From a virus: DNA of 44,340 nucleotides. The position numbers and the translations under genes were made by a program. Shown in pieces: positions 3,974 to 44,340 of the stretch. The stretch covers positions 1-44,340 of IMG/VR virus record IMGVR_UViG_3300037070_003643; one strand, 5' to 3'. The notes below the pieces were generated by a model. That model ran no database searches. It was not told where the DNA came from and was given only the letters and a program-made list of their open reading frames with translations. Each line of letters opens with the position of its first letter. Position 1 is the first letter of the stretch.

Positions 3974-5136
3974 TGGGCTGGGCCGATGTCGCCGGTGGGG
4001 TGCAGAACGCCGTGCAGCGGCAGTTGATGCAGCGCGTGCAGCAACAGCAGATGGAAGCGCAAGCGCAAGAGCATCAGCGCCGGGCGGAGATGGAGTACCG
4101 CTCCGCCGATCGCGCGGATCGGAGCCAGGGCCTGCAGGAAGCGGAGTTCGAAGCCCGCAACGCCCGCCAGCTCGGGCTGGACGAGCAAGCCGCGCAACAG
4201 CACACGGCCACGCAAGCGACGGCGCTCGGCGATCAGCTGCCCCCGGACACGTTCCTGGGCACCGAGGATCCCGCCGTGGGAACGATGCAGCGCGGCGGGA
4301 CCGGCTCATTGTTGACGCGGCAGGCGCCAACGGAGGCGATGGGGCCCGAGTTCGCCGGCCCGATGCCGAATATGGAGAGTCCGCAGCAAGCGCAGGTGGG
4401 GCGGCCGGGCGGGTATCTGAAAACGCGGAGCCAGAAGCAACTGGACACCGACGCCGACAATGCGCGCATGGCGCAGACGGTGACGGATACCCGCGCGGAC
4501 AAAACGGCCGACAACGTGCGGAGAGATGCGGAGAATGCGGCAACGGCGGACTTCCGCAAGGCCACGCTCGCGCAGCACCAGCCCACGGATAAATTCGCCG
4601 ACTGGAAACAGCAGTACGACTACGAACTCGCGCATCCCAAAAAAGGCGGGACGGGCGTGGATGGGCCGTCGCCGTATGCGGAGGAACGCGCAACCCGCAA
4701 CTTGGCCGCGGTCAAGGATCTCTCCGACTCTGCGAGCCGGTGGAATACGGGCTACGGCAGCCTCTTAAGCAACGTGCCGGAAAGCGACGCGCGCACCTTT
4801 GCCGCCAAGCTCAAGACGCTGAAAGCCAACATCGCGTTTGGCGAACTCACGGCGATGCGCGAAGCGAGCAAGACGGGCGGGGCCCTCGGCGCGATTTCCG
4901 AACGGGAATTGACGCTGCTCGAATCGGCGCTCGGCGCGCTGGATACGGGTCAAGAGAAAAGCCAGTTCCAAGCGGAACTCAAGAAGATCGAGGACAGCAT
5001 CGGGCGATGGCATAAAGCCAGCGGCGGCGGGACGCAAGGGGGGATGCAGCGGATGCAAGCGCCCGATGGGCGGATGCTGAACGTGCCCGCGGACAAAGTG
5101 GCGGAGATGGAAGCGCACGGGGCGACGAGACACTGA
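3973..5136 (+). CDS. Putative internal virion protein with coiled-coil core
   Basis: The true start is the ATG at the TAATG overlap with the upstream gene, giving 387 residues; the reading frame is open further upstream only as a shadow. Residues 8-75 are Gln/Glu-rich helix. Residues about 265-345 carry a conserved-looking segment (KTLKANIAFGEL, MREASKTGGALG, ISERELTLLESALGALD) that recurs in phage DNA-transfer and internal virion proteins. The C-terminus ends with a short APDGRMLNVPADKVAEM motif also found at the ends of such proteins. It overlaps the next gene by TGATG. It probably acts in the capsid or during DNA ejection; no enzymatic motif is seen. Confidence 0.6.
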   Translation: MGWADVAGGVQNAVQRQLMQRVQQQQMEAQAQEHQRRAEMEYRSADRADRSQGLQEAEFEARNARQLGLDEQAAQQHTATQATALGDQLPPDTFLGTEDPAVGTMQRGGTGSLLTRQAPTEAMGPEFAGPMPNMESPQQAQVGRPGGYLKTRSQKQLDTDADNARMAQTVTDTRADKTADNVRRDAENAATADFRKATLAQHQPTDKFADWKQQYDYELAHPKKGGTGVDGPSPYAEERATRNLAAVKDLSDSASRWNTGYGSLLSNVPESDARTFAAKLKTLKANIAFGELTAMREASKTGGALGAISERELTLLESALGALDTGQEKSQFQAELKKIEDSIGRWHKASGGGTQGGMQRMQAPDGRMLNVPADKVAEMEAHGATRH

Positions 5137-10591: not shown

Positions 10592-10750
10592 TCAGGCGAG
10601 GAACTCGAGGAGGGTGAGCGCCACTAGGAGCCCGCAGGAGGCGCGTTCAAGGCTTCGGAAGATTTGATCCACGATCTGCTCGACGAGGCGGACGTGCGCC
10701 GGGGAGCGCCAGGCGAGCACCTGGAGCTTGTCCCCCAGACTCGGCCCGCG
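10592..10750 (-). other. Repressor C-terminal tail in +1 frame
   Basis: From 10750 leftward 52 codons read RGPSLGDKLQVLAW, SPAHVRLVEQIVDQIF, then LLVALTLLEFLA before a stop. Joined after Leu144 of the upstream frame (…FERLASRLL) this continues an amphipathic helical protein naturally, giving 196 residues. The junction bases are CTT-CTT-A-CGC, where one extra base or a +1 slip from CTT to TTA would restore the frame. It is a real frameshift, a programmed event, a sequencing error, or an overlapping small gene. Confidence 0.4.
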
Positions 10751-11183
10751 TAAGAAGTCGGCTGGCGAGGCGTTCAAAGTCGGCGATGATGTGCTTGAGT
10801 TCCGCAGCGGCCGGCGACGGGGGCGGCGCGACAGCGACATGAGCGTCCTTTTTGGATGAACGGTGCACGGCGATGTCTACGGCAGCAACCTGCATGCCGC
10901 GCATCGCGTGCCCGATCCGCCGGTCGCGGCCACCACGCCGCTCCATCTGCCGCCGCTCCGTCAGCGTGGAGATCCCAGGCTGAAAGAGCTGATACGTCGC
11001 AATGCCAAAGAAGTCCGCGATCCGGTCCACGTCGCGTAGGGAAAACTCGCGGCGCGGTTCCTTGAAAATCTTACTGATCCAACTTTCACTTTTGTAACAG
11101 TATTGTGCCAAGTCTTTACGGCTCTGCGCTCGCACTCGCAGGAGCGTGTCAACGTTGTGCTTAATGAGAAGGCTGGCTTTCAC
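10647..11183 (-). CDS. XRE/cI-like repressor, apparently frameshifted
   Basis: Started at GTG 11183 the protein has 178 residues; a GTG at 11234 would add 17. Residues 8-62 form a helix-turn-helix of the XRE class (VDTLLRVRAQSRKDLAQYC, SESWISKIF, LRDVDRIADFFGI). An ERRGGRDRR basic motif follows, found in this type of phage regulator. Residues after about 144 become a low-complexity GC-rich tail, while the +1 frame carries a sensible continuation (next entry). The gene is divergent from a Cro-like gene and shares the operator region, so it is the likely lysogeny or early-gene repressor. Confidence 0.6.
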   Translation of the reverse strand: MKASLLIKHNVDTLLRVRAQSRKDLAQYCYKSESWISKIFKEPRREFSLRDVDRIADFFGIATYQLFQPGISTLTERRQMERRGGRDRRIGHAMRGMQVAAVDIAVHRSSKKDAHVAVAPPPSPAAAELKHIIADFERLASRLLTRAESGGQAPGARLALPGARPPRRADRGSNLPKP

Positions 11184-11213
11184 CGGCCGTAAACTATTAT
11201 CACGGTTACACTT

Positions 11214-11289
11214 GGCACCCTGTCCCGATTGCACGGATATTCTGTCTGTTTAGGCTTGACACGGTGTCCGACTTAGGCGATACTGTGTC
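11214..11289. promoter_or_regulatory. Repressor operator cluster
   Basis: A perfect palindrome GACAC-G-GTGTC lies at 11258-11268. A near copy, GATAC-T-GTGTC, lies at 11279-11289, exactly 21 bases (two helical turns) away centre to centre. A weaker copy, GGCAC-C-CTGTC, lies at 11214-11224, 44 bases to the left. They overlap the rightward promoter and flank the divergent repressor start, as lambda-type operators do. Another partial copy (GACAC-T-GTGCC) is at 11618-11628. Confidence 0.6.
11256..11284 (+). promoter_or_regulatory. Promoter of the Cro-like gene
   Basis: TTGACA at 11256-11261, a 17-base spacer, then GATACT at 11279-11284. The ATG of the next gene comes six bases later and lacks a Shine-Dalgarno site, so the transcript should begin at or next to the start codon. 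Confidence 0.6.
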
Positions 11290-11290
11290 C

Positions 11291-11563
11291 ATGCCCACTG
11301 GCGCTGACCAACTCAAGGATTGGATGGATCGGCGTTGGCCGCTGTCCCTGCGGAAAGCGCGCGAATCGGCCGAGTATCTCGGGTACGACGAGAGCTTCAT
11401 CTCGCAACTCCTGCGCGGCGACCGCCGCCCTGGCTTGACCAATGCGATCAACATCGAACGCAAAACCGGCATCCCGGTTGAGGCCTGGGTGTCCAGTATG
11501 CTTGACGACGACGACACCGCCGCGCCCGTGAGAGCCCGTAAACGTGTGCAGGACAGAGCGTAA
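11291..11563 (+). CDS. XRE-family Cro-like regulator
   Basis: The 90-residue protein carries a helix-turn-helix over residues 18-62: LRKARESAEYLGYDESFISQLLRG, RRPGLTNAINIERKTGIPVEAW. This is the HTH_3/Cro-C1 layout used by phage repressors and Cro proteins. The tail is acidic then basic. It is transcribed away from the leftward XRE gene across shared palindromes, so the two probably form a bistable switch. The start chosen is the ATG adjacent to the promoter; an upstream in-frame start would lie within the promoter. Confidence 0.7.
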   Translation: MPTGADQLKDWMDRRWPLSLRKARESAEYLGYDESFISQLLRGDRRPGLTNAINIERKTGIPVEAWVSSMLDDDDTAAPVRARKRVQDRA

Positions 11564-21370: not shown

Positions 21371-22081
21371 ATGCGCGTCGAGCTGATAGCCGAGTGCTCG
21401 TCCAATCATGGGGGCTCGATCCCGCTGGCGAAGGAGTTCATCAAGCGGTTCGCGGCGGCGGGTGCGGACTGGGTCAAGTTTCAGTCGTTCAAGGTCAAAC
21501 ATCTGCGCCCAGACGACCCCCAAGCGGATTGGTTCAGGCGCAGCGAGCTGAGCGACGACGCGCATCACGAGCTCAAGGCCGCGTGTGAAGCCGAAGGGAC
21601 GAAGTTTCTCACGACGGTGTATCACGTGGACGAGGTGCCGTTTCTTGCGGCCTTGGGGCTGGCGGCGATCAAGATCGGGAGCGGGGAAGGGCAAGAGCGG
21701 GCCCTGAGTTTGGCCGCTATTCGCCACTTCCCGCGCGTCTTGATTTCCGCGGGCTTGGGCAGCCCGGCGATCCACGACCACCCGCGGCACGGCTACGATC
21801 ACCTCGCCTGTATTACGCGCTATCCCGCCCCGCACGGTATGGTGCCGGCCTCATTGGGGAGGAATCAGTACTTTCAGGGGTGGTCGGATCACTGCGTGGG
21901 GTTGGAGTCGTGTCAGGTGGCGATCATTCGCGGGGCACGGATTATTGAGAAGCACGTCCAGCTGATGGGGCAAGCGCGGGATCCGAAGCCCTTCGAAGCC
22001 ACGACGGATGAGTTCAAGGCCCTGCGCGCGTTCGCTGATGAGGATCCCCAACGCTTTCTCGGCCGCTGGCAATTCGCATGA
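21371..22081 (+). CDS. neuB: Sialic acid (nonulosonate) synthase
   Basis: NeuB condenses ManNAc, or a related aldose, with phosphoenolpyruvate to give a nonulosonic acid. The 236 residues contain the TIM-barrel signature in order: IAECSSNHGG (6-15), GADWVKFQSF (31-40), IKIGSGEGQ (100-108), VLISAGLG (123-130), YPAPHG (151-156), GWSDHCVG (170-177) and GARIIEKH (188-195). H174 and H195 are 21 apart, as are the manganese ligands known in bacterial NeuB. The C-terminal antifreeze-like SAF domain, present in most NeuB (about 340 residues), is missing. GC is typical of the phage. Confidence 0.8.
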   Translation: MRVELIAECSSNHGGSIPLAKEFIKRFAAAGADWVKFQSFKVKHLRPDDPQADWFRRSELSDDAHHELKAACEAEGTKFLTTVYHVDEVPFLAALGLAAIKIGSGEGQERALSLAAIRHFPRVLISAGLGSPAIHDHPRHGYDHLACITRYPAPHGMVPASLGRNQYFQGWSDHCVGLESCQVAIIRGARIIEKHVQLMGQARDPKPFEATTDEFKALRAFADEDPQRFLGRWQFA

Positions 22082-22659
22082 GCCACCCCGCGCTCACCCA
22101 TCTGCCGAAAGGTTGGGTGCATCACGGGGATCAGATCCTCGCCCTGCTCGAGCAGCACCAGCCGCGGGTCGTGGTGGAGCTCGGGACGCACTACGGCGCC
22201 TCGGCGATTGCGATGGCGCGCGTCGTCCGCCAATGGGGCGGGACGATCACCTGTGTGGATACGTGGTACGGGGTGCCCCGTCCGGGACGGCCGATGAAAC
22301 CCGTGAAGCTGCTGGCCTGTGCGTCCAACTGCGTCATCGCGGACGTGAGCGCCTCGGTCCGGTTGATTGTGGCCGAGACCGGCGCGGCGGGCCGCGCGTG
22401 GCAGGGGCCGCCCATTGATGCGCTGTATGTGGACGCGGATCACTCGGAGGCGGGCTGCTTGGCCGACCTCGAGACGTGGGGGCCGCACGTGCGATCGGGC
22501 GGGCTGCTCCTCGGCGATGATGGCGATCATCCGAAGTATCCGGGCGTGCGGATCGCGTGGGAACGGTATGCGCAGGAGATCGGGATGGCGTTGACGTTCG
22601 GGGAACCGCACGACACCAATCCGCCGGGGATGCGCCTGGTCTACGGGATCAAACCGTGA
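22078..22659 (+). CDS. Class I SAM methyltransferase (Methyltransf_24-like)
   Basis: 193 residues from the ATGA overlap. The SAM site is VVELGTHYGASAIAMARVV (residues 31-49), then ITCVDTWYG, with DALYVDADHSEAGCLADLE (115-133) and GLLLGDDGDH as later core strands. This is the Methyltransf_24 layout used by small-molecule and sugar O-methyltransferases. Lying between neuB and the DNA methylase it probably modifies the sugar or a glycan; a small-molecule target is more likely than nucleic acid. The exact acceptor is unknown. Confidence 0.65.
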   Translation: MSHPALTHLPKGWVHHGDQILALLEQHQPRVVVELGTHYGASAIAMARVVRQWGGTITCVDTWYGVPRPGRPMKPVKLLACASNCVIADVSASVRLIVAETGAAGRAWQGPPIDALYVDADHSEAGCLADLETWGPHVRSGGLLLGDDGDHPKYPGVRIAWERYAQEIGMALTFGEPHDTNPPGMRLVYGIKP

Positions 22660-23390
22660 CGCCGTATTACGAGCAGGACGGGATCGTGATCTACCACGGG
22701 GATTGCCGGGAGGTGTTGCCGTCGCTTCCAGCGGCCGATGTGGTGTTGACTGATCCGCCGTATGACGCACAGACCCACGCGGGCGCGCGGACGCTCGGCA
22801 AGGAAGCCGTGGCGCGGGCCTCATCTGGAAAGCGCGGCATTACGTCTGCTGGGGTGATCGAGATGGGGTTCGCGTGCTTACCTGACGTGGCCTACACGTC
22901 GCAGCTCACGCGGTGGGCCATGCGGTGGTGCTTAATCTTCTGCTCGCTTGAAATGCTCGGCGCGTATCGTGAAGCGGCAGGGGCGGAGTATTGGATTCGC
23001 GGTGGCTTCTGGCATCGTCCTGACGGCGCACCCCAAATCACCGGCGACCGGCCCGGGCAGCCCGGTGAAGGGATTGCGATTCTGCACCGGCCCGGTCGGA
23101 AGCGCTGGAACGGCGGCGGCCATCATGCCTTCTATGCGCACAACACGGTGAAGCATGGGCGCGTGCATCCGACACAGAAACCGGAATCGCTGATGCGTGA
23201 ACTCGTGACGCTCTACAGTGACGAAGGCGAAACGATCCTCGATCCGTTCATGGGTAGTGGGACCACGCTCATAGAAGCCAAACGACGGGGCCGGAAAGCC
23301 ATCGGGATCGAGTTGGAAGAGAAGTATTGCGAGATCGCGGCGACGCGGCTCCAGCAAGGGGCGTTCACGGAGATGTTTAGGCCGACATGA
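22656..23390 (+). CDS. DNA N4/N6 methyltransferase
   Basis: 244 residues from GTG (GTGA overlap). The catalytic motif is LTDPPYDAQT (31-40), followed near the C-terminus by DPFMGSGTTL and IGIELEEKYCEIAATRL, the SAM-binding FxGxG and its following acidic strand. The order DPPY before FxGxG marks a beta-type enzyme that methylates adenine N6 or cytosine N4. No restriction nuclease is adjacent, so it is an orphan methylase that probably protects phage DNA or regulates host sites. Its placement inside a sugar operon is unusual. Confidence 0.75.
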   Translation: MTPYYEQDGIVIYHGDCREVLPSLPAADVVLTDPPYDAQTHAGARTLGKEAVARASSGKRGITSAGVIEMGFACLPDVAYTSQLTRWAMRWCLIFCSLEMLGAYREAAGAEYWIRGGFWHRPDGAPQITGDRPGQPGEGIAILHRPGRKRWNGGGHHAFYAHNTVKHGRVHPTQKPESLMRELVTLYSDEGETILDPFMGSGTTLIEAKRRGRKAIGIELEEKYCEIAATRLQQGAFTEMFRPT

Positions 23391-24532
23391 GGGTTGCGGT
23401 TGTCTTAACTGCGAGGGCTTCTTGGAGCAAACTGGAGCCGATCTGCCGTGCCTTGAAAGCCCGACCCGACGTGGAGTTACAGATCATCGCGTGCGCGAGT
23501 GCGCTGCTCGAGCGGTACGGAAAGGTCGTGGACGTTGTCAGAAGCCAAGGGTACGACGTCACGGCGGAGTGTTGGAGCACGTATGAAGGCGCGACGCTCC
23601 TCACGAGTGCCAAAGAAACTGGTGCACTCCTTACTGAACTCGCTGCCACGCTGTCTCGGGTGTCTAGCGATTATGTTCTCGTATGCGCCGACCGACACGA
23701 GGTTCTGGCAGCCGCTCAAGCGGCCGCTTACCTTCACCTTCGATTGTGCCATCTGCAAGGGGGTGAAATCTCTGGAAGTCTTGATAACAAAGTACGGGAC
23801 AGCATCACACAGTTGTCCGACATCCACTGCGTCTCGACGTGGCGGGCCCAGCAACGGGTGAGAGGCTTAACCGGCGATGCCGCGGGGATTTACCTGACGG
23901 GGTGCCCGAGCATCGACCTCGCGCGCGAAGCGCTGGACACGCCGCGCGTCACCTTCAGCGAGATCGGCGGCGTGGGCTACACGTTCGATCTCGCGGAGCG
24001 GTTCCTCATCATCCTGCAGCATCCCGTCACGAGTGAAGTGGCGCAGGCCGCCGCGCAGATGCAGACGACGCTCGACGCGACAATCGGGCAGCGCCGGATC
24101 GTGTTCTGGCCGGGCGAGGATGCGGGGCAGGAGCGGATGGCGAAGGTGCTGCGCATGACCCCGGACGTGCACACCGTGCGGAACCTGCCACCGCAGCGGT
24201 TCTTACGTCTGCTTACGCAAGCGGCCGTGCTGGTGGGGAATAGCAGTGCCGGGATTCGCGAAGGCTCGTATCTGGGCGTGCCCGTGGTGAACATCGGGAC
24301 GCGGCAACAAGGGCGCGAGCGCGGGCCGAACGTGATCGACGTGGGCCACGACCCAGCGGCGATTCGGGCCGCGGTCGCGCGGCAGATCGACCACGGGCGG
24401 TATCCACGGTCGACACTCTATGGGCGGGGGGATGCGGGGGAGCGGATCGCGGAGGTGTTATGCGCTATCTCGGGAAATTCTTCATGGTCGGGCGTGAAGG
24501 CTGGTGCTATCTCATTGAGGGGCAGTTCTTAA
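23387..24532 (+). CDS. neuC: UDP-GlcNAc 2-epimerase, hydrolysing
   Basis: NeuC converts UDP-GlcNAc to ManNAc and UDP, the first committed step. The 381 residues carry VLTARASWSKLEPI (6-19), CADRHEVLAAA (100-110, DRHE catalytic region), CHLQGGEISGSLDNKVRDSIT (121-141), LQHPVTSE (210-217), VGNSSAGIREGS (283-294) and VNIGTRQQGR (301-310), the epimerase family in order. Codon use changes sharply near residue 158: the DNA before is about 50-55% GC, after about 65-70%. The last 20 residues overlap another small gene and look like a frame extension. The exact amino-sugar substrate is inferred. Confidence 0.75.
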   Translation: MRVAVVLTARASWSKLEPICRALKARPDVELQIIACASALLERYGKVVDVVRSQGYDVTAECWSTYEGATLLTSAKETGALLTELAATLSRVSSDYVLVCADRHEVLAAAQAAAYLHLRLCHLQGGEISGSLDNKVRDSITQLSDIHCVSTWRAQQRVRGLTGDAAGIYLTGCPSIDLAREALDTPRVTFSEIGGVGYTFDLAERFLIILQHPVTSEVAQAAAQMQTTLDATIGQRRIVFWPGEDAGQERMAKVLRMTPDVHTVRNLPPQRFLRLLTQAAVLVGNSSAGIREGSYLGVPVVNIGTRQQGRERGPNVIDVGHDPAAIRAAVARQIDHGRYPRSTLYGRGDAGERIAEVLCAISGNSSWSGVKAGAISLRGSS

Positions 24533-24597
24533 TCCTCATACACGATCAGCGCACGGGGCACCTGACCGCCCGGATTGAGTTATCGCACCGTGCGTAA
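24460..24597 (+). CDS. 45-residue hypothetical protein
   Basis: ATG directly behind GGAGGTGTT, in a different frame within the end of neuC. The product starts MRYLGKFFMVGREGWC and is a mix of hydrophobic and charged residues. It overlaps the start of the cytidylyltransferase. It may be a real small gene or an explanation for why the neuC tail looks unrelated to other epimerases. Confidence 0.4.
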   Translation: MRYLGKFFMVGREGWCYLIEGQFLILIHDQRTGHLTARIELSHRA

Positions 24598-25351
24598 CGT
24601 GTTAGCCATTATTCCCGCGCGCGTGGGGTCGAAGGGCATCCCGCATAAGAATTGGACGCCGTTAGTGGGCATGACCCCGTATGAACGGGCCGTACATGCG
24701 GCGGTCGACGCGGGGATTGAGACGGTCGTGACGACGACCGATGCGGAAATGTCCTCCGCTCGCCTGGGGTTATGGGCGCGTCCGATCATGGCCCCGGTGA
24801 TGCTGCGCTGGTTGCACGCCGGTCCCCCCCTCCACACGGACACCTGCCCCATGATCGACGTCGTGCAAGACGTTCTCGCCCGCGTGCCCGGCCCCCCTGA
24901 GCAGATCGTGGTCTTACTCCAATGCACGCAACCCTTACGCACGCCCGCCCATGTCCAGGCGGCGATCGCGCTCCTCGAGAAGACGGGCGCGGACAGCGTG
25001 GTGAGCGTGGTGGCGGTCCCCGAGGCGTCTCGGCCTGAGCTGATGTGTTGGATCGGCGGGTTGTCGGGGTATCTCTGCCCCTTCGACGTGATGCGTGGGC
25101 TGTTGGGCGGGGAGCCCCGCGACTGGTCGCGCATCCCCACGCGCCGGCAGGACACGAAGGCGGGAATGTACCTGCGGGACGGGACGGTCTACGCGTTCAG
25201 GCGCGCGACGGTCAGCGCCTACGGCCACCTCTATGGCGTGCATGTCCGCCCGCTGCTCATCCCCCCCGAGGAGACGCAAGCGCTTGACACAATGGCGGAT
25301 TGGGCCGAAGCCGAGCGCCGCCTCCGTGACAGACCAGGTCACACCCCATGA
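24590..25351 (+). CDS. neuA: CMP-sialic acid synthetase (cytidylyltransferase)
   Basis: NeuA activates the nonulosonic acid with CTP. About 253 residues from GTG 24590; TTG 24575 or GTG 24599 are alternatives. Motifs in order: LAIIPARVGSKGIPHKN (nucleotide loop), TTTDAE (TD pair), VLLQCTQPLRTP (LLQPTSPLR), DSVVSVVAVPE, then IPPEETQALDTMADWAEAE (normally the DID region). These define the cytidylyltransferase family. It overlaps the small gene above and ends with an ATGA junction to a HTH gene. Substrate specificity between Neu5Ac, pseudaminic and legionaminic acids cannot be decided. Confidence 0.75.
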   Translation: MRNVLAIIPARVGSKGIPHKNWTPLVGMTPYERAVHAAVDAGIETVVTTTDAEMSSARLGLWARPIMAPVMLRWLHAGPPLHTDTCPMIDVVQDVLARVPGPPEQIVVLLQCTQPLRTPAHVQAAIALLEKTGADSVVSVVAVPEASRPELMCWIGGLSGYLCPFDVMRGLLGGEPRDWSRIPTRRQDTKAGMYLRDGTVYAFRRATVSAYGHLYGVHVRPLLIPPEETQALDTMADWAEAERRLRDRPGHTP

Positions 25352-25536
25352 AGGAGCACCGCCTCAACCGCTGGCTCAGTATCAGCGCCTACAGCCGGGC
25401 CTACGGGCTCTCCCGCCCCACCATCCGCAAGCTCCTCGACCAAGGCTGCCTCGAGTCCTATCGCGTCCTCGGGATGACCCGCATCCGCAACGTCGAGCCC
25501 GACGCCCACCACCCACACCTCCCCAAAGCGCACTAA
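25348..25536 (+). CDS. Small helix-turn-helix protein, excisionase-like
   Basis: 62 residues from the ATGA junction. Residues 9-45 read LSISAYSRAYGLSRPTIRKLLDQGCLESYRVLGMTRI, like the winged HTH of excisionase/MerR-type small proteins. It is the last gene of the sialic-acid operon and could autoregulate it or be an inherited excisionase. No integrase is present. Confidence 0.5.
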   Translation: MKEHRLNRWLSISAYSRAYGLSRPTIRKLLDQGCLESYRVLGMTRIRNVEPDAHHPHLPKAH

Positions 25537-25714: not shown

Positions 25715-26134
25715 ATGGCCAAATGCACAACCGACCAATCGCAGCTCAGCGATGACGATAAGGCCCTCGTCCTGACCCTCGCCCAACGCGACCTCTCCCA
25801 AACCGAAATCGCCCAGATTGTTGGCTGTCATCACTCGTCTGTCAGTCGATGGCTAAGCCGCTTCGAATCCACCGTCGTCATCGCCCAACGCCGAGCGCGA
25901 CACCGCGCACTCGAAGTCACGGATGCCGCCTTCGATGGCGCTGTCAAGGCCGCGAAAGACGGCAAACCCGAGCATGCGATGGAGTTAGCGGACCGCGTAG
26001 GTGCGGTGTTGAAGCGCCAGGCGGAGGCGAGCTCGAGCCAGGTGCAGATTGTGATCGGCATGCCCGGGCAGCCTGCTGGGCCTGACCCGATCGTGGTTTC
26101 GCCTTTACCTTTCGCCCCTCGGTGTATTGAATGA
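25715..26134 (+). CDS. Terminase small subunit
   Basis: The 139-residue protein recognises the packaging site. Residues 10-52 form a homeodomain-like HTH (LSDDDKALVLTLAQRDLSQTEIAQIVGC, HHSSVSRWL). Residues 60-105 are a helical oligomerisation region, and the C-terminal QVQIVIGMPGQP segment recalls the portal- or TerL-binding end of other TerS proteins. The gene order TerS-small-TerL-portal agrees. No Shine-Dalgarno site precedes the ATG. Confidence 0.65.
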   Translation: MAKCTTDQSQLSDDDKALVLTLAQRDLSQTEIAQIVGCHHSSVSRWLSRFESTVVIAQRRARHRALEVTDAAFDGAVKAAKDGKPEHAMELADRVGAVLKRQAEASSSQVQIVIGMPGQPAGPDPIVVSPLPFAPRCIE

Positions 26135-26536: not shown

Positions 26537-28099
26537 ATGGGGGCGGTCTGTTGTTGGTGCGGGACGGGGTTGGGACAGGACGCCGGGGGGATCTGGTGGT
26601 GCCCGCAGGCGGGGTGCTGGCGGCGGCAGCAGGAGCACGGGCTCGGGGTAGCGGGGGCTGGGGGGGCGTGGACGTGGCTGTATGTGCCCACGCCGAAGCA
26701 GGTGGAGTTTGACGCCTGTCCGGCCCGGTATGTGTTGTATGGGGGGGCGGCGGGGCCGGGGAAGAGTCACGCGGCGCGGTGGGCGCTCTACCGGCGGTGT
26801 TTGCGGCAACCGGGGTATGAGGCGTTGATTCTGCGGCGCACGTTTCCCGAACTCGAGAAGACGCATCTGCGGCGGATGGCGGCGGAGGAGTGGGATTTGA
26901 ACGGGCGGCCGACGGACCGGAAGAGCCGGCCGCACGCGGAATTTGTGGAGAGCAAACGGCTGATGCGGTTTACCAACGGATCGATGATCGAATGCGGCCA
27001 CATGGACGATGCCGCCGCCGTGTCGAAGTATCTGTCGACCGAATATCACTGCATCGTGCCGGACGAGGGGTCGACGTTCGAACCGAATCCCTTGCTCGAG
27101 CTGTCGACCCGCGCGCGGCGGGTGTCCCCCGATGGGACCGAAAAGGGGAAATTCTGGGTGGTGAGCAACCCCGGCGGGCCGGCCTCGGCGACGCTCCTGG
27201 ATTTCTTCATCGACCATCAGCCGGACTTTGACGCCTATCCGAAGCTGCGCGACAAGTACGACCCGGCGCAGTGGGTGTTTGTCCCGGGCCGGCTGGACGA
27301 CAACCCGTATCTGGATCCCGACTACGAAGCGAGCTTGGCGGTCCTGCAGCCGTGGCGGTATGAGCAGCTCCGGAACGGCGATTGGCGCGTGTTTTCGGGG
27401 CAGTTTTTCTCCGAGTGGCAGGAACGGATCCATGTGGCGGCCCTCGAGCCCTCCCGGGAGGCGCGCTGGTTCCGGTCCTTGGACTGGGGCCGCAATCAAC
27501 CGGGGTGCGTGCTCTGGTGGGCGCAACTGCCGGACCACGCGCTCTACCTGCGCCGGGAATGGAAATTCCAGGGGATGAGCGAGCAGGAAGTGGCCGTCGG
27601 GATTCGGGCGATCGACCGGGAACTCGGCCTCGAGCGGCTGGCCTATACGGCGGCGGACCCCTCGATCGTCAACCAGACCGGGGCGACGCATCAGCAGGGG
27701 AGCTTTCAGGGGCAGTCGATCGGGGAAACCCTCGGGCACTACAAGGTGCCCGTCGTGAAGGCCGATAACGACCGCTTCAACGGCTGGGGGCGCTGTCATG
27801 CGCTGTTGCGGCTCGCGCCAAGTGGCGTGCCCTGGCTCCAGGTGCATCCGGAGTGCCGATACCTCATCCGCTCGATCGCCGGCGCCGTGAGCGACCCGAA
27901 GGATCCGGACGATGTGGACACCGCGAGCGACGATCACGCGCTCGACGCGTGGCGGTACGGGGCAATGAGCCGACCGCATCCGCTCGGCACGAAGAAGGCG
28001 CGCGTCCGGTACGCCGAGGGCACCATGGGGGCGCTACGGCAGGCCGTGACGGCGGGATCGCGCCGCCTCGGATCAGAGAGCGTGCGCCGTGCCAGCTGA
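26537..28099 (+). CDS. Terminase large subunit
   Basis: The 520-residue packaging motor has a Walker A motif GGAAGPGKS (69-77), a Walker B CIVPDE (172-177), and the C-terminal RNase H-type nuclease residues SLDWGRN (D316), AADPSI (D374) and DDHALDAWRYG (D470). The N-terminal 40 residues add a zinc-like CCWC…CPQAGC arrangement not always present. The start ATG directly follows the TAG of the preceding gene. The extensive overlapping leftward open frame is its shadow. Confidence 0.85.
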   Translation: MGAVCCWCGTGLGQDAGGIWWCPQAGCWRRQQEHGLGVAGAGGAWTWLYVPTPKQVEFDACPARYVLYGGAAGPGKSHAARWALYRRCLRQPGYEALILRRTFPELEKTHLRRMAAEEWDLNGRPTDRKSRPHAEFVESKRLMRFTNGSMIECGHMDDAAAVSKYLSTEYHCIVPDEGSTFEPNPLLELSTRARRVSPDGTEKGKFWVVSNPGGPASATLLDFFIDHQPDFDAYPKLRDKYDPAQWVFVPGRLDDNPYLDPDYEASLAVLQPWRYEQLRNGDWRVFSGQFFSEWQERIHVAALEPSREARWFRSLDWGRNQPGCVLWWAQLPDHALYLRREWKFQGMSEQEVAVGIRAIDRELGLERLAYTAADPSIVNQTGATHQQGSFQGQSIGETLGHYKVPVVKADNDRFNGWGRCHALLRLAPSGVPWLQVHPECRYLIRSIAGAVSDPKDPDDVDTASDDHALDAWRYGAMSRPHPLGTKKARVRYAEGTMGALRQAVTAGSRRLGSESVRRAS

Positions 28100-30116
28100 T
28101 ATTCGCTTCTGGCGCGGCGAACTCGCGCGCTCCAAAGCCGTCGCCGAGCCCCTCTGGCCCGGCTGGCAAACCAACGTCGATTACTACACCGGCACGAGTG
28201 CGGACGCGAAAGCCGCGCTGGCGAGTAACCGCGATTACGTCAACATCAACGCCGATTTCTACCAGGTCGAACTGAAACGCGCCCAACTCTTCTTCGAACG
28301 CCCCGATCTCCAGCTCGAGCGCAAAGGCACGTTCTTCCTCGCGGACCCGATGACCCCCGAAGGGAAGCGCGAAGCCACGGCGGAGGAAATCGGCGTCTTG
28401 CTCCACGCCCACAAAATCCTGCTGAATGAACTCCTCGGCCCGGACCATGCGGACGTGCTCACGACCGTGAAGCTCGCGCTCAAGGATTGCTTGTGCCCCT
28501 CGGGCTTCGGCGCGACCAAGATCGGCTACGAGCCGACCGTCGAAGAGATGGCCCCGCCGCCGCAGCTCGGCGACATGATGGGCCTCAAAGAGACCATCAG
28601 CAAGCCGATCCATGAGTCCTGGTACTGGAACCGCATCCCGGCCAAGAAATACCGGATCCCGGCGGAGTTCTCCAGCACCGATTACGACAAAGCGCCGTGG
28701 CTGGCGATGGATTTCCGGATGCCGCTCACGCTCGGCCGCCGCGCGTTCACCCTGCCGCCGGACTTTCAGGGCACCCGGACGCGCGATGATCGGCTCCTGA
28801 ACGATCAGGCGCAGGGGAACGGGGCCTCGGACCTCGCCTATCTCGACGGCACCGAACTCTGGTACTACGCCGCGCAGGTGGACGGGGACGCGATCCACCC
28901 GCAACTGATCCGCCGGCATGTGCTCGTCGAAGGCGTCGACGCGTTTGTCGAAAAAAGCGTCGACTCGCCGTACCAGACGCTCCTGCCGACGGGCCGGCTC
29001 TCCGGCGATTCGATGATCGGGTTTCCGATCCACGTCTGGACGCTGCGTGACGTGCCCGACTCCGCGTATCCGCCGAGCGATTGCACGATGACGCGGCCGC
29101 TGGTGCGGGAGCTCTGCACCTTTCGCACGCAGATGGTGCAGGCGCGGGACGCGAACCGGCCGCGCGTGCTCTATGACGCGATCAAACTGCCGCCCGCGGT
29201 CATCGACCAGATTGCGGCCGGGACGCTCGGTGATCTGATCGCGGTCGAAGAGGGGGCCCTCGCCCAAGGCATCGGCGCGATCATGCAGCAAGTGGCCCCG
29301 GCCACGACCCCGCGCGAAACCTTCACCGCGAACGATTACATCCAGCGCGACCTCGACAAAACGCTCGGCATCGACGCCGCCGGGGCGGGGATCGCGGATG
29401 ACGCGCAGGAGTCGGCGACGAAGACGAACGAGATCAGCCGGAACCGCAACGTCCGGATCAACGCCGAACAGCGGCAGGCGCTCGGGATCTACCTGAAAGG
29501 TGTGGCCAAATTCTCGGCGCTCGTCCTCCGCTACATGACGCCGGAACTCGCCACCCCGTACGTGGGCGCGCAGGCTGCGCAGCTCTGGGGCGCGTGGGAC
29601 AAACAAGGCACCGACCACCGGATCGCGTTTGACGCGAAGCCCGATTCGCAGTTGAGCCTCGATGCCGCCGTGCAACGGAAGTTCTGGCTCGACATCTATC
29701 AGTTTGTCGTGAATGACCCGGGCGCGAACCGCACGGCGATTCTCAGCAAGTTGATCGAAGTGGCCGGGGAAAACCCGCAGGAATTCCTGACATCCGAAGT
29801 GCCCGAGGAAAAGCCGAAGAGTAATTTCACGTTCGCGTTCAAGGGCGAGGATCTCATCGGGCCGCAAGCGCCGATCGTGCTCGAGATTCTCGCGCAGAAC
29901 GGGCTCCAGATTTCCCCGGACGCGCTCGCCGCGGCCCAAGATCAGCTGCTCCAGGCGCAGGTGCTCGGCGTGCGCGACGCGAGCGGCGCGCCGGTGCCCG
30001 CCGCGACGAAGACGCCCGCGCCCCACGGCGGACCGGCCGAACAAGTGCGGCCCTTGAGTCAGCAGACGGCGGACCGGAGCAACAACCGGCCGGCGCCGCA
30101 GGAAGTGGGTGCCTGA
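28089..30116 (+). CDS. Portal protein
   Basis: The 675-residue protein starts at GTG, overlapping terL by 11 bases. The length, order after terL and long helical stem (residues about 330-480, with QEVAPATTPRETFT and DDAQESATKTNEI) are typical of podovirus-type portals. The C-terminus (after 600) is Ala/Gln-rich. No other gene in the packaging block has portal size. It would form the dodecameric channel at one vertex. Confidence 0.75.
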   Translation: MPADIRFWRGELARSKAVAEPLWPGWQTNVDYYTGTSADAKAALASNRDYVNINADFYQVELKRAQLFFERPDLQLERKGTFFLADPMTPEGKREATAEEIGVLLHAHKILLNELLGPDHADVLTTVKLALKDCLCPSGFGATKIGYEPTVEEMAPPPQLGDMMGLKETISKPIHESWYWNRIPAKKYRIPAEFSSTDYDKAPWLAMDFRMPLTLGRRAFTLPPDFQGTRTRDDRLLNDQAQGNGASDLAYLDGTELWYYAAQVDGDAIHPQLIRRHVLVEGVDAFVEKSVDSPYQTLLPTGRLSGDSMIGFPIHVWTLRDVPDSAYPPSDCTMTRPLVRELCTFRTQMVQARDANRPRVLYDAIKLPPAVIDQIAAGTLGDLIAVEEGALAQGIGAIMQQVAPATTPRETFTANDYIQRDLDKTLGIDAAGAGIADDAQESATKTNEISRNRNVRINAEQRQALGIYLKGVAKFSALVLRYMTPELATPYVGAQAAQLWGAWDKQGTDHRIAFDAKPDSQLSLDAAVQRKFWLDIYQFVVNDPGANRTAILSKLIEVAGENPQEFLTSEVPEEKPKSNFTFAFKGEDLIGPQAPIVLEILAQNGLQISPDALAAAQDQLLQAQVLGVRDASGAPVPAATKTPAPHGGPAEQVRPLSQQTADRSNNRPAPQEVGA

Positions 30117-32088: not shown

Positions 32089-33057
32089 ATGCCTACACCC
32101 AATGATGGGGTGACGATTGCGGCGAGTTGGAACGCCCTCGTCAACGACACCCCCGAAGACAACATCTTCGAAGATTACTGGCTCCTGAACCGCCTGAAAA
32201 ACGGGGAAGGGTTCAAGTCGATCGATGGCGGCGACGTGATTACCGCCTCGCTCGAGTACGCCACGAACGCCACGGTGGCGTGGTACTCCGACACGGAAAC
32301 GCTCAGCACCACGCGCCAGGACGTCTTCGATCGCGCGGAGTTCGGCTGGAAGGAATGCGCCGGCACGGTGCTGCAATCCGAGCTGGAAAGCGCCATCAAT
32401 CAGGGCTCCGCAAAGAAGTTCGACCTGCTCGACAGCAAGCTCAAGAACCTGCGCAGCTCGCTCGACTCGCTCGTCAATACCGCGATGTATTCGGACGGGA
32501 CGGGGTCTGGGTCCAAGGAAATCGGCGGGCTTCGGCATCTCGTGGCGACCGATCCCACGACCGGCACGGTCGGCGGGATCAATCGCGCGAACTTCACCTT
32601 CTGGCGTAACCAGCAAGCCTCGGGGATCAAGACCACCTCGGCGTTTGACAACCTGCGCGCCGTCATGCGCAGCCAGTACAACCTGGCGAGCAACGGCGTC
32701 CAGGGCCAACACCCGAAGTTCGGGACCACGACCCGCACCGTGTTTGAAGGTTTCGAGGGGCTCTTGCTCGCGAACGAGCGGTTCACTTCGAAGGCCGACG
32801 GGGACGGCGGCTTCAAGAACGAGATCCTGAAGTTCAAAGGGATGATGCTGTCGTACGACAACGACTGCCCGACCGGGATCATGTACTTGCTGAATCCCAA
32901 GTACCTCCAGCTCGCCTATGTAAAGGGGCACTGGTACAAGGCGTCGCCGTCGGTGGAGCCCGCGAACCAGACCGTAAAGGTGTTCAAGGTCCACGCGATT
33001 GCGAATCTCATCACCACGAACGCCCGCATGCTCGCGGCGATCACGGGGATCACCTAA
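32089..33057 (+). CDS. Major capsid protein
   Basis: The 322-residue protein follows scaffold with AGGAG before the ATG, the standard order. It has the HK97-like pattern of a mixed N-terminal arm, an E-loop region (residues 40-75, NGEGFKSIDGGDVIT), long spine-like helix (residues 95-135) and a C-terminal P/A-domain (NPKYLQLAYVKGHW, TVKVFKVHAIAN). No large protease or delta domain is present. It is the expected size for a podovirus coat. Confidence 0.75.
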   Translation: MPTPNDGVTIAASWNALVNDTPEDNIFEDYWLLNRLKNGEGFKSIDGGDVITASLEYATNATVAWYSDTETLSTTRQDVFDRAEFGWKECAGTVLQSELESAINQGSAKKFDLLDSKLKNLRSSLDSLVNTAMYSDGTGSGSKEIGGLRHLVATDPTTGTVGGINRANFTFWRNQQASGIKTTSAFDNLRAVMRSQYNLASNGVQGQHPKFGTTTRTVFEGFEGLLLANERFTSKADGDGGFKNEILKFKGMMLSYDNDCPTGIMYLLNPKYLQLAYVKGHWYKASPSVEPANQTVKVFKVHAIANLITTNARMLAAITGIT

Positions 33058-34672: not shown

Positions 34673-35565
34673 GGGACGACCTCTTGACGTGGGAAGGCGT
34701 CCGGGCGCTGGCGACGTGTGAAGTCCTGACGGCCGCGGACCAGACGATCCGGATCGTGACGGCCGATCCCCGGCGCCCGCCGATCAAGGTCGCCACCGAG
34801 CAGCACTGGTTCCACGACGCGATCCCGATGGCACCCGGGCCCGGGGCGATCGTCTATGCCCGGACCGCGTGGCGGCGACCGTGGCGCCCGCGCCTCCTGC
34901 AGCAGATCCAGGAGCCGGTGGTCCTCGTCTCGACCTTTTCCGATCCGATGATCAAGCCGCAGGCCGTGTGTGAAATGTTCGCGCCCGGCTCGCCCGTGCA
35001 GCACTGGTTTGGCGTCCAGGCAGCGACCGCGCATCCCCGGTTGTCGGCGATGCCGGTGGGGATCGAAGGCTCGATCGTCCCGATCCTCGAGGCGGCCGAA
35101 CGCCACACGATCCGGGACATTCCCCTCTATCTCAATTTCCAGCTTCGGGGCCGGGGGACGCAGCCGGACGCCATTCGCGGCGCGTTGTGGCGGCAATTCG
35201 CCGGCCAGTCCTGGGTCACGGCGGATCACTGGGCGCCCGGCGGCGAAGCGGCCTATAGCGCGCAGCTCGGGCGCAGCCAGTTCGTGCTGAGCCCCCCCGG
35301 AATCGGCTGGGATTGTTACCGCACGTATGAAGCGATCGCGATGGGTGCGATCCCGATTGTCCGCCGGGAACGCCCGATGACGGATGTGTGCGAACCCTTG
35401 CCCGTCCTGATCGTGGACGACTGGAACGAGATCACCCCCGAGCGCCTCCAGCACGAGTGGGCCCGCCGCCGCCCCGGCGATCTCCGCACGTTGACGCTGC
35501 GCTATTGGCGCACCCGGATCGAGACGACGGCGGCGGCGCGCGTCCCGCAGGCGGTGGCCGGATGA
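34669..35565 (+). CDS. Exostosin-like glycosyltransferase
   Basis: 298 residues from the ATGA overlap. The C-terminal half carries SQFVLSPPGIGWDCYRTYEAIAMGAIPIVRR (203-233), the donor-binding strand of the exostosin (GT47-like) and GT-B superfamily, in which a Glu (E221) holds the nucleotide sugar. Earlier residues FSDPMIKPQAV and NFQLRGRGT lie in the N-terminal Rossmann domain. No membrane anchor. Its acceptor could be a virion protein or another sugar. The assignment is by motif and moderate in certainty. Confidence 0.6.
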   Translation: MRDDLLTWEGVRALATCEVLTAADQTIRIVTADPRRPPIKVATEQHWFHDAIPMAPGPGAIVYARTAWRRPWRPRLLQQIQEPVVLVSTFSDPMIKPQAVCEMFAPGSPVQHWFGVQAATAHPRLSAMPVGIEGSIVPILEAAERHTIRDIPLYLNFQLRGRGTQPDAIRGALWRQFAGQSWVTADHWAPGGEAAYSAQLGRSQFVLSPPGIGWDCYRTYEAIAMGAIPIVRRERPMTDVCEPLPVLIVDDWNEITPERLQHEWARRRPGDLRTLTLRYWRTRIETTAAARVPQAVAG

Positions 35566-36392
35566 CGCCCATCACCGCCGCCGCCCCCGCCTTCGAGTAC
35601 GGCGCGTATCCGCAGATCCCCGTGCCCGCGTGTCCGTGCTGTGGGCGCCCGAACGCCAGCACGCCCGTGATCGATCGGTACGGCTATCGCCTCGGGACGA
35701 GTCGCTGTGCGTGCGGGTTCGGATATCTCAATCCCCAACTCTCCGCGGATGGCTATGCCGCGTTCTACACGCACGCGTACCGGCCGCTGATCACCGCGCA
35801 GCGGGTGCGACAGGGGCACGCCCCCAGCGTGTCGCCCGGGGCGCAGGAGGCGCTGTACCTGATGCGTGCGCGCTGGATCGCCGCCGGCGCCGCGCGGCTC
35901 CAGCCGGTCCGCCGTGTGGCGGCCCTCTGTGACGTCGGCGGGGGGCCGGGCGCGCTCGTCGCGCGCGTGCTCGAGCGGTGGCCGGCGGACGTCGTCACGG
36001 TGATCGATCCCAACCAGGCCGAGCTCGCCGACGCCGCGGCGCAGGGCTTCACCACGATCCACGCGGTGGCCGAAGACGCGCCGCCGCTGCCGCCGCAGGA
36101 CGTGATCCTCTGCGCGCAAACGCTCGATCATGTGCGTGATCCCCTCGGCGTGCTGCGGTGGCTGCGATCGATCCTCGCGCCGGGCGGCTGGCTGTACGTG
36201 GACGTGTGTGATGCGCGGCGGGTGGGATCGGCCGATTACCGACACCCGGCGCCGTATCAATGGAAGCTGGATCATCCCTGTTACTGGACGCCGCGGACGC
36301 TTCTCCGGGCGCTGCGGGCGACCGGCTGGGGCCCGCGCCTGCACGGGGCGTGCGAACGCTATCACCAGGCGATCTGGTGTGAAAGAGCGTGA
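35562..36392 (+). CDS. SAM methyltransferase with N-terminal zinc domain, sugar type
   Basis: 276 residues from ATGA. The N-terminal 60 residues have CPCCGRP and CACGFGYLNP, the zinc-binding head of sugar C/O-methyltransferases. A SAM site ALCDVGGGPGALVARVL follows (about 123-140), then VIDPNQAELA, and a CAQTLDHVRDPLGVLRWLRSILAPGGWLYVDV core (about 180-215). This two-domain architecture is typical of sugar methyltransferases such as those of nonulosonate or deoxysugar pathways. It ends right next to the inserted leftward endonuclease. Confidence 0.6.
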   Translation: MTPITAAAPAFEYGAYPQIPVPACPCCGRPNASTPVIDRYGYRLGTSRCACGFGYLNPQLSADGYAAFYTHAYRPLITAQRVRQGHAPSVSPGAQEALYLMRARWIAAGAARLQPVRRVAALCDVGGGPGALVARVLERWPADVVTVIDPNQAELADAAAQGFTTIHAVAEDAPPLPPQDVILCAQTLDHVRDPLGVLRWLRSILAPGGWLYVDVCDARRVGSADYRHPAPYQWKLDHPCYWTPRTLLRALRATGWGPRLHGACERYHQAIWCERA

Positions 36393-36394
36393 TG

Positions 36395-36904
36395 TTACGC
36401 CACCTCGCGCGGCGGCTGATGACGCAGCAGGTAATTGGCAGCGGCGAACAGAATCGCGGGGTTGTCTCTTGCGAGACCCAGCGCCGTGTTGCAGTTATTA
36501 CAGAGCAGGCCTCGGACTTTCTTAGTGGCGTGGCAATGGTCGACATGGAATCTGCCGCGTCCCCGCGGTTGCTCGGACGCGCAGATCGCGCATTGATTGT
36601 GCTGGCTCGTCAGCAAAGCCGCGTACGTGGCATCAGTCAGACCATATTTCTTGAGCAGTTGGCGTCTGTCAGTAGCTGGTCGTGGGCGTCGATATTTGCG
36701 CCAGTTGTCGCGCAGTTTTTCGCGATTCCGCTCTCGGTATCTACGGCCGGCTTCCAGAAATTTCTCCGGATGCGCTTCTCGATAGGCTTTTTGTTTGGCC
36801 TTTTGTTCTGGGCTTTGACGCCACTCCAAAATGTGCTTCCGGTATTTGGCGTAACGCTTACGGCTATAGAGAGGATCGCGGTACCTTTCGCTGCTTTTGC
36901 TCAT
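36395..36904 (-). CDS. Recombination endonuclease VII-like protein
   Basis: The 169-residue leftward gene has a long basic N-terminus (residues 1-75 with many Arg/Lys), then CAIC (105-108), FHVDHCH (119-125), GLLCNNCN (132-139), the zinc and catalytic DHCH signature of endonuclease VII. A phage T4 relative resolves DNA branches, but many copies are mobile homing-type elements. It is the only leftward gene in the virion block and has lower GC than neighbours, so it looks inserted. No Shine-Dalgarno site; an extended -10 lies six bases upstream. Confidence 0.75.
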   Translation of the reverse strand: MSKSSERYRDPLYSRKRYAKYRKHILEWRQSPEQKAKQKAYREAHPEKFLEAGRRYRERNREKLRDNWRKYRRPRPATDRRQLLKKYGLTDATYAALLTSQHNQCAICASEQPRGRGRFHVDHCHATKKVRGLLCNNCNTALGLARDNPAILFAAANYLLRHQPPREVA

Positions 36905-36919
36905 TCGGCGATAGTATCA
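36905..36919 (-). promoter_or_regulatory. Leftward extended -10 promoter
   Basis: Reading leftward, TG-A-TACTAT (36919-36911) gives an extended -10, with no good -35, and the ATG of the endonuclease starts after six bases. The transcript is probably leaderless. Confidence 0.45.
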
Positions 36920-36943
36920 CAATCTACAATATATAGGTGAGAA

Positions 36944-43400: not shown

Positions 43401-44340
43401 ATGGCTGATCGCAAAACACGGATCGTGCTGGACGACTTCAGCGGCGGACGCAACGGCGTCGACACGCCGCTCGGGCCCGACTTCAAGACGAATCAGGTCG
43501 TGGACGCGGTCAACGGCGATTGGTATCGCACGCGCGGGTTTCGCAAGCGCCACGGGAGCAGTTTAGTGGGCACGAGCGGCACGTATTTCGTGGGCGCGGT
43601 CGCGTGGGTCGGGCGGCATGTGCCGGGGACGAGTGAAGCGGACGCGGAACTCTGGGGCCTCGATAACGACACGTTTCCGCACTTTGCGCGCTTGGATAAC
43701 AGCACGACCTGGACGACGCCCACCGTCGTGGACATTCCCTCGTTCAGCGCCAGTAAGTTCGATGTGACGTGCGCGTCGCTCAATGGCTTGTTCTTTATCG
43801 CGTATCCGTTCAACGCGCGGTTACACCTCTACGACGCCGGCACCGACACGATCCGGCGCACGGGGATCGATCCCGGCACAAATGCCCCGACGGTGGCGAA
43901 TACGGGCGCGGGCACCTATGCCGCCATCCTCCGGTACTACCGCGTCCGGTTCGCGCTCGGGACCGGCGGCGTCGTGCGATCGGAAGCGACCCCGAGTGTG
44001 AGTTTCACTCCCAGCGGCGGCGGCACCCATGCGCGCGTGACGCAACCGGCCGTGCCCGCGAATGAATCGATCATCACCTGGGGAGTAGAAGCCTCGACGG
44101 ACAACGTCACCTTTTACGAGATCCAAGCCCCCACGATCGCCATTGCCACGACCACGTACGATGACGGGCTCGCGCCCGCGGTCTACAACAGCGGCACCTA
44201 TCCCCTGAGTGCGTTGACGGGCCGGCACAGTCTCCAGAAAGCGTATCGGTTCATCGCCGCCGATCAGAACCGCCTGATCGGGTTCGGCTCCTATACGAGC
44301 ACGGACAAGCAGAACCGGCTGGAGATCGGCGCCGTCGTGG
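43401..44340 (+). CDS. Tail/nozzle-type structural protein, N-terminal part
   Basis: The first 313 residues of the roughly 649-residue protein that continues at base 4. It starts MADRKTRIVLDDFSGGRNGVD and has a beta-propeller-like or mixed beta look (LDNDTFPHFARLDN, RFALGTGGVVRSEATPSV). No catalytic motif. As the largest protein after the adaptor it fits a tail nozzle or stabilisation protein such as those of P22-like and T7-like phages. Confidence 0.6.
   Translation, partial: MADRKTRIVLDDFSGGRNGVDTPLGPDFKTNQVVDAVNGDWYRTRGFRKRHGSSLVGTSGTYFVGAVAWVGRHVPGTSEADAELWGLDNDTFPHFARLDNSTTWTTPTVVDIPSFSASKFDVTCASLNGLFFIAYPFNARLHLYDAGTDTIRRTGIDPGTNAPTVANTGAGTYAAILRYYRVRFALGTGGVVRSEATPSVSFTPSGGGTHARVTQPAVPANESIITWGVEASTDNVTFYEIQAPTIAIATTTYDDGLAPAVYNSGTYPLSALTGRHSLQKAYRFIAADQNRLIGFGSYTSTDKQNRLEIGAVV
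44242..44340. repeat. Terminal direct repeat, right copy
   Basis: Identical over 99 bases to 5-103; see the left copy. Removing one copy gives a unique genome length of about 44,241 bases. Confidence 0.9.

Follow-up and report, generated by a model that had tools for sequence, protein, structure and literature searches.

A phage-borne NeuB-NeuC-NeuA cassette and a co-inherited gene of predicted sialyltransferase-like fold suggest nonulosonate decoration of the virion

To our knowledge, phage particles have long been held to be unglycosylated, and the few exceptions have been described through their glycosyltransferases. Large eukaryotic viruses are known to glycosylate their virions (PMC4691112), and the mycobacteriophages Che8 and Rita bear glycans on their major capsid proteins and encode glycosyltransferases (Freeman 2023, cited in PMC11256854); the latter paper does not describe phages making a nonulosonate donor themselves. 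Acinetobacter baumannii prophages carry genes that act on nonulosonates (epaA/epaB and atr29/atr30; PMC12053666, PMC6586298), but these modify a capsule sugar made by the host and comprise neither a synthesis route nor a virion target. In bacteria, the N-acetylneuraminic acid (Neu5Ac) route consists of NeuC, NeuB and NeuA (TIGR03568, TIGR03569 and PF02348), and Maf enzymes, whose central domain resembles Cst-II, place nonulosonates on Ser/Thr and also modify sites transplanted into a protein of beta-sandwich fold (PMC11339370). Here we describe a NeuB-NeuC-NeuA (NeuBCA) cassette and a co-inherited gene of predicted sialyltransferase fold, P0001, in IMG/VR virus record IMGVR_UViG_3300037070_003643 (positions 1 to 44,340; this whole stretch of 44,340 nucleotides is the window below, and all genes lie on its plus strand unless stated otherwise). 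We found no report in the literature of a phage cytidine monophosphate (CMP)-nonulosonate route with its own transferase, although most subscription journals lay outside the search and absence is not proof.

On balance we favor the reading that this phage makes a CMP-nonulosonate and that a GT42/Maf-like transferase attaches the sugar to a head protein of the virion. The donor genes are ordered NeuB (a NeuB-like nonulosonate synthase consisting of the barrel only, 21371..22081), a class I S-adenosylmethionine-dependent methyltransferase (Methyltransf_24, CmcI/rhamnosyl O-methyltransferase-like; 22078..22659, PF13578 69.5 bits), a DNA N6/N4 methyltransferase (22656..23390, PF01555 92.7 bits), NeuC (a hydrolyzing uridine diphosphate N-acetylglucosamine [UDP-GlcNAc] 2-epimerase, 23387..24532), NeuA (a NeuA-like CMP-nonulosonate synthetase, 24575..25351, starting at TTG 24575 or GTG 24590), and a small helix-turn-helix (HTH) protein (25348..25536, weak match to PF12728 under the cut-off), with the terminase genes next. 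A sequence-only reading of the window had proposed NeuC-, NeuB- and NeuA-like genes in one coupled operon, interrupted by two methyltransferases and a small gene. The three genes are indeed present, with Pfam Epimerase_2, NeuB, and CTP_transf_3 all above cut-off; profiles and Protein Data Bank (PDB) sequence matches place each inside its named family, and for NeuB the fold does so too. Both methyltransferases were also recovered, the small gene corresponding to a possible 45-codon open reading frame read from the sequence (24460..24597) that runs across the NeuC/NeuA border and overlaps both genes. Coupling by ATGA/GTGA stop–start overlaps holds at the cassette gene borders except NeuC/NeuA.

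NeuC scores 200.9 bits against Epimerase_2 (PF02350, cut-off 30.6) and lies above the curated NeuC equivalog TIGR03568 (293.9 vs. 235.9 bits). Its best PDB match is human GNE (4zht, 8e-75), followed by a LegG-type enzyme (5xvs, 1.5e-51). The alignment with 4zht retains ADR, GGE, SxD, LQH-V-T, GNSS, GIRE, and RQ-GRE, and the catalytic D, E, and D as well as the substrate-binding residues of human GNE are conserved. Because NeuC is nearer to human GNE than to the bacillosamine-type epimerase LegG, its sequence points to UDP-GlcNAc as the substrate, though not decisively. NeuB matches PF03102 (91.6 bits, cut-off 22.1), and the 12 best PDB fold matches of its AlphaFold2 model are all NeuB/PseI/SpsE. 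The residues E8, K36, Q38, K101, S104, E106, S172, D173, H174, E193, and H195 are invariant among phage NeuB homologues, and those binding phosphoenolpyruvate (PEP) and metal are kept (K, Q, GSGE, SDH, and E-x-H aligned to 1xuu). The best equivalog is NeuB_NnaB (TIGR03569), but the score is under its cut-off (107 vs. 399.65 bits), and we therefore speak of the NeuB family rather than of a demonstrated Neu5Ac synthase. NeuA scores 46.6 bits against CTP_transf_3 (PF02348, cut-off 22.6), with PseF as best equivalog at a score under its cut-off. Its conserved columns include PAR-x-GSKG-x-P-x-KN, which binds cytidine triphosphate, TQPLR, and RRQ, and the phage profile matches 6ifd (4.4e-27) and 1eyr (3e-24) in the PDB. 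The first Asp of the C-terminal Mg-binding D-x-D is replaced by Ala/Pro, the second being retained. The ratio of nonsynonymous to synonymous substitution rates (dN/dS) is 0.16–0.41 for NeuB, NeuC, and NeuA, which argues against these being chance matches; over all cassette genes tested it is 0.15–0.41, and all of them are under purifying selection.

Since a donor pathway needs a transferase, we searched for such a gene. P0001 (33851..34672, 273 residues), in the head module, starts with G-G-x-x-T-L...W-E-L-W and has a further stretch M-x-A-LAL-x-EG-x-x-x-L-x-x-x-G-x-D-Y; because both are reminiscent of CstII, its fold was examined. The AlphaFold2 model, built with a 23-sequence alignment, has a mean predicted local distance difference test score of 73.6, with residues 31–200 mostly at 76–96 and a lower block at 161–170. 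In a fold search of 350,542 PDB chains, the 12 best matches were all GT42 sialyltransferases, namely 11 CstII chains (1ro8, 1ro7, 2x61, 2x62, 2drj, 2x63) and 9c08, at probability 1.00 and E values of 1.8e-4 to 4e-3; the 13th match had a probability of 0.28. The P0001 family profile found one PDB sequence with E < 10, a sialyltransferase matched at the second of these stretches (E 1.8, weak alone), and the GT42 motif region M-x-A-x-ALA-x-x-x-G-x-x-x-I-x-L-x-G-x-D-F/Y can be aligned. Several CMP-binding positions seem by eye to differ, P0001 having His where CstII presumably has Asn; D160, Y161, and Y167 are its candidate CMP-binding residues. The dN/dS of P0001 is 0.12–0.19. One contig (L010) holds two divergent tandem copies (L073:1214-1996 and 2193-2861), as if serving two linkages or acceptors.

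P0001 is inherited together with the cassette. All five relatives that carry NeuBCA and reach past the head gene (G004, G006, G008, G010, G011) encode P0001 and, ahead of it, the decoration-like protein; none of the four that have a head region and no NeuBCA (G012, G014, G015, G020) encodes either. In these four, another small protein takes the place behind the head gene, and there is no P0001 block. Relatedness alone does not account for this linkage, because G012, without P0001 and NeuBCA, is closer to the window (major head protein 70% and large terminase 55% identical) than G010, which has both (44% and 32%). A second scan with P0001 alone as query gave 25 records, with NeuC in 14 and NeuB in 16, NeuA being in the same 16; the donor pathway was present in 11 of the 13 newly found informative records, the remaining new records being fragments. 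In every relative that reaches it, P0001 stands in the head module after the capsid and decoration genes. The sequence-only reading, which had missed this gene, listed decoration of the virion, of DNA-associated proteins, or of the host surface and competition for host sugars as possible uses; the first of these is best supported, through the GT42-like gene in the head module and its co-inheritance with NeuBCA.

The fold could also belong to another nucleotide-dependent enzyme of the MptE-like/GT42 superfold, in which case the CMP-nonulosonate would be used otherwise, for example by the exostosin-like GT47 glycosyltransferase encoded downstream (34687..35565; PF24785 35.8 bits, cut-off 27; PDB 8q8i, 8avq, 8asa, 6e-11). 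The viral fold matches of P0001 include MptE-like phage proteins, P0001 is without a Pfam family, and two genomes carry it without the pathway. We nevertheless consider this explanation quite unlikely, given the clear gap between the sialyltransferases and the next PDB match, the joint inheritance of P0001 and NeuBCA even between phages with terminase identity as low as 32%, and the presence of the GT47 enzyme in just 3 of 22 records (the window, G008, and G031). Such an enzyme is unusual in a phage; 8avq, among its best solved relatives, is AO75L, by its name presumably a chlorovirus protein.

Several findings weigh against transfer of a nonulosonate by P0001 to the virion. The TM-scores of its fold matches are 0.36–0.42 by query length, a profile alignment (hhalign) to one GT42 sequence reached 24% probability over 38 columns, and P0001 has no Pfam family match, PF06002 and PF01973 being absent in all 23 family members. 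As these two families fail to detect it, we call P0001 GT42-like in fold, as the model suggests, and not a GT42 member. Two long P0001-carrying contigs (G026, G038) are without NeuB, NeuC, and NeuA, and the tests of association between P0001 and NeuBCA are small (p 0.011 and 0.008), on records not independently drawn. Furthermore, the NeuB frame stops after the barrel at 236 residues, without the C-terminal SAF/antifreeze domain that extends into the active site of the neighboring subunit in characterized sialic acid synthases. Complete phage NeuB of this type have 233–259 residues, whereas those beside the nearest bacterial NeuC mostly have 329–361; the two chromosomal exceptions are L044 (268) and L055 (269), and 6ncs, a chain of 290 residues, is possibly a short form as well. 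The substrate of the short NeuB could differ from N-acetylmannosamine (ManNAc), for which reason we use the term nonulosonate instead of sialic acid. The sequence-only reading had the motifs of each family intact; two corrections to it are the missing SAF domain of NeuB and the missing Asp of NeuA. The locus thus resembles the bacterial Neu5Ac route in having all three families in one operon with NeuC over its curated cut-off, and departs from it in these two enzymes and in being phage-borne.

We infer the enzymatic activities, the sugar, its acceptor, and its benefit as follows. NeuC would yield ManNAc by hydrolysis and epimerization of UDP-GlcNAc or a closely related compound; NeuB, without its SAF domain, would condense ManNAc with PEP to a nonulosonic acid, and NeuA would convert this to CMP-nonulosonate. 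In the cytosol, P0001 would then attach this sugar to Ser/Thr residues in one of the head proteins, much as Maf enzymes modify flagellin. The acceptor is most likely the small decoration-like protein encoded just upstream of P0001 (33089..33793, directly 3' of the major head protein gene, with homologues in relatives), or else the major head protein; Ser/Thr make up 19% of the decoration-like protein and 23% of its last 94 residues, a content that is at most suggestive of a sugar acceptor. The optional methyltransferases and the GT47 enzyme may vary the glycan, and the particle could gain a negatively charged shield or an altered surface. The scheme is akin to Maf flagellin O-glycosylation (NeuB, NeuA, Maf_flag10) in that an enzyme with a Cst-II-like domain is proposed to move the nonulosonate from its CMP donor onto Ser/Thr of a surface protein present in many copies (PMC11339370); it differs in that P0001 is short and unmatched by PF01973, and in that a capsid protein is the suggested acceptor. 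The fuller claim, that podovirus-like phages use their own CMP-nonulosonate and a new GT42/Maf-like transferase family to O-sialylate a capsid decoration protein and so acquire a host-independent sialic-acid shield, is possible but put forward tentatively. If true, virion decoration would extend to sialic-acid-type chemistry, through a phage group that builds an activated nine-carbon sugar and inherits this ability along with a transferase linked to the head genes; P0001 would represent a new transferase family for nonulosonates onto proteins, and NeuB would work without a SAF domain. The compact gene set makes the role of glycosylation for a phage testable.

The main rival to virion decoration is that the CMP-nonulosonate serves to remodel the host surface during infection, via P0001 or host sialyltransferases, for example blocking superinfection or adsorption to debris. 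Prophage epaA/epaB are known to alter host capsule nonulosonates (PMC12053666), prophage O-acetyltransferases are also described (PMC6586298), and a similar cluster in the order NeuC-NeuB-methyltransferase-NeuA lies in an apparent bacterial surface-polysaccharide locus (L055), its methyltransferase being 40% identical to that of L010. These precedents are prophages, however, and no tyrosine integrase was found in the window or in nine relatives; together with the constant position of P0001 behind the capsid and decoration genes, this makes host-surface remodeling unlikely in our view. Lysogenic conversion as the chief use is disfavored on the same finding, no tyrosine integrase having turned up in the window or these nine relatives. 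The chromosomal NeuC genes with a short SAF-less NeuB (L055:9992-13389, L044:9043-11137) mark loci of a type that is a possible source of the phage module. PF06002 was detected in none of 19 bacterial genomes with a related NeuC, and a survey of 398 genomes from a single phylum gave only two matches.

Searches with NeuC, NeuB, and the terminase recovered NeuB, NeuC, and NeuA in this order in 11 more viral contigs (L002, L003 [partial], L004, L010, L024-L026, L028, L029, L032, L033), upstream of the terminase genes in all but L033, where the block adjoins the small terminase. The comparison with bacterial trees that the sequence-only reading had called for was run for NeuC, and the 14 phage sequences form a single clade (support 100/99) nested among bacterial NeuC. 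The interspersed genes vary, being MTase_24, another methyltransferase, a DNA methyltransferase, HNH endonucleases, or none. MTase_24 is present in L002 and L004, replaced by another class I methyltransferase in L010, and without counterpart in L024, L025, L029, L032, and L033, and is by this comparison an optional cassette member. At the position of the DNA methyltransferase, relatives have HNH genes or nothing, so by the same comparison it is inserted cargo, unconserved at this site. Its place inside the operon speaks for a purely metabolic or counter-defensive role, in which UDP-GlcNAc and PEP would be drained from wall synthesis or the sugar would modify phage DNA, DNA glycosylation by phages being established. 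We regard such a role as very improbable, since this methyltransferase is no constant part of the cassette, NeuA is conserved and needless for draining, and the conserved linked genes are head genes; DNA modification was rejected because the methyltransferase is outside the conserved cassette. HNH-type endonuclease genes (L002:960-1520, L002:2472-3083, L003:422-1111, L004:7344-7820, L026:435-983, L028:2100-2900 and 4301-4681) seem to have been inserted into the cassette several times over, at junctions between genes; in the window, the DNA methyltransferase occupies such a spot.

Between L004 and the window the terminase is 98% identical, NeuC 65%, NeuB 54%, and NeuA 39%, and nucleotide matches are patchy; the sugar genes therefore seem to diverge or be exchanged faster than their neighbors, as expected of a surface trait. 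Across 50,697 records, no phage isolate with the pathway was found at the sensitivity used, barring a Moritella viscosa contig (approximately 25% identity) that is probably host DNA. Two of the 16 NeuB-carrying records from the P0001 scan, both with a distant P0001 (G039, G040, i.e., L115, L116; 26–33%), have a longer NeuB (frame of approximately 316–322 codons) and NeuA and no UDP-GlcNAc 2-epimerase, and perhaps rely on a different nonulosonate or a host-supplied precursor.

The terminal 99 bases of the window (44242-44340) duplicate bases 5-103 and a 649-codon gene crosses the joint, from which the genome is judged circular and complete at approximately 44,237 bases, the exact ends being off by a few bases. 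Bacterial contamination was rejected because the two contig ends join and the block has the same position in relatives. The phage genes comprise a putative small terminase with an HTH (25715..26134; HTH_23, phrog_2538 terminase small subunit 0.001), the large terminase (26537..28099, phrog_979 3.5e-33), the portal (28089..30116, a weak SU10_portal match adjoining the large terminase in all relatives), the major head protein (32089..33057, phrog_9953 6e-48), and an SU10-type adaptor, a set that fits a short-tailed phage. The sequence-only claim of a three-gene CMP-nonulosonate set in a phage genome of approximately 44 kb is thus upheld at the level of families. The island after the decoration gene continues past the GT47 gene with a class I methyltransferase (Methyltransf_23; 35562..36392, PF13489 71.9 bits) and ends with a gene without a family match (36389..36940). 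Divergent HTH_3 genes at 10647-11234 (minus strand) and 11264-11563 (plus strand) resemble a repressor/Cro pair. The large terminase gene is split in L005, L007, L022, and L026 and in records G031, G034, and G035, a pattern resembling introns or inteins; in L005 and L007 the interruption measures approximately 830 bases and falls near residue 471.

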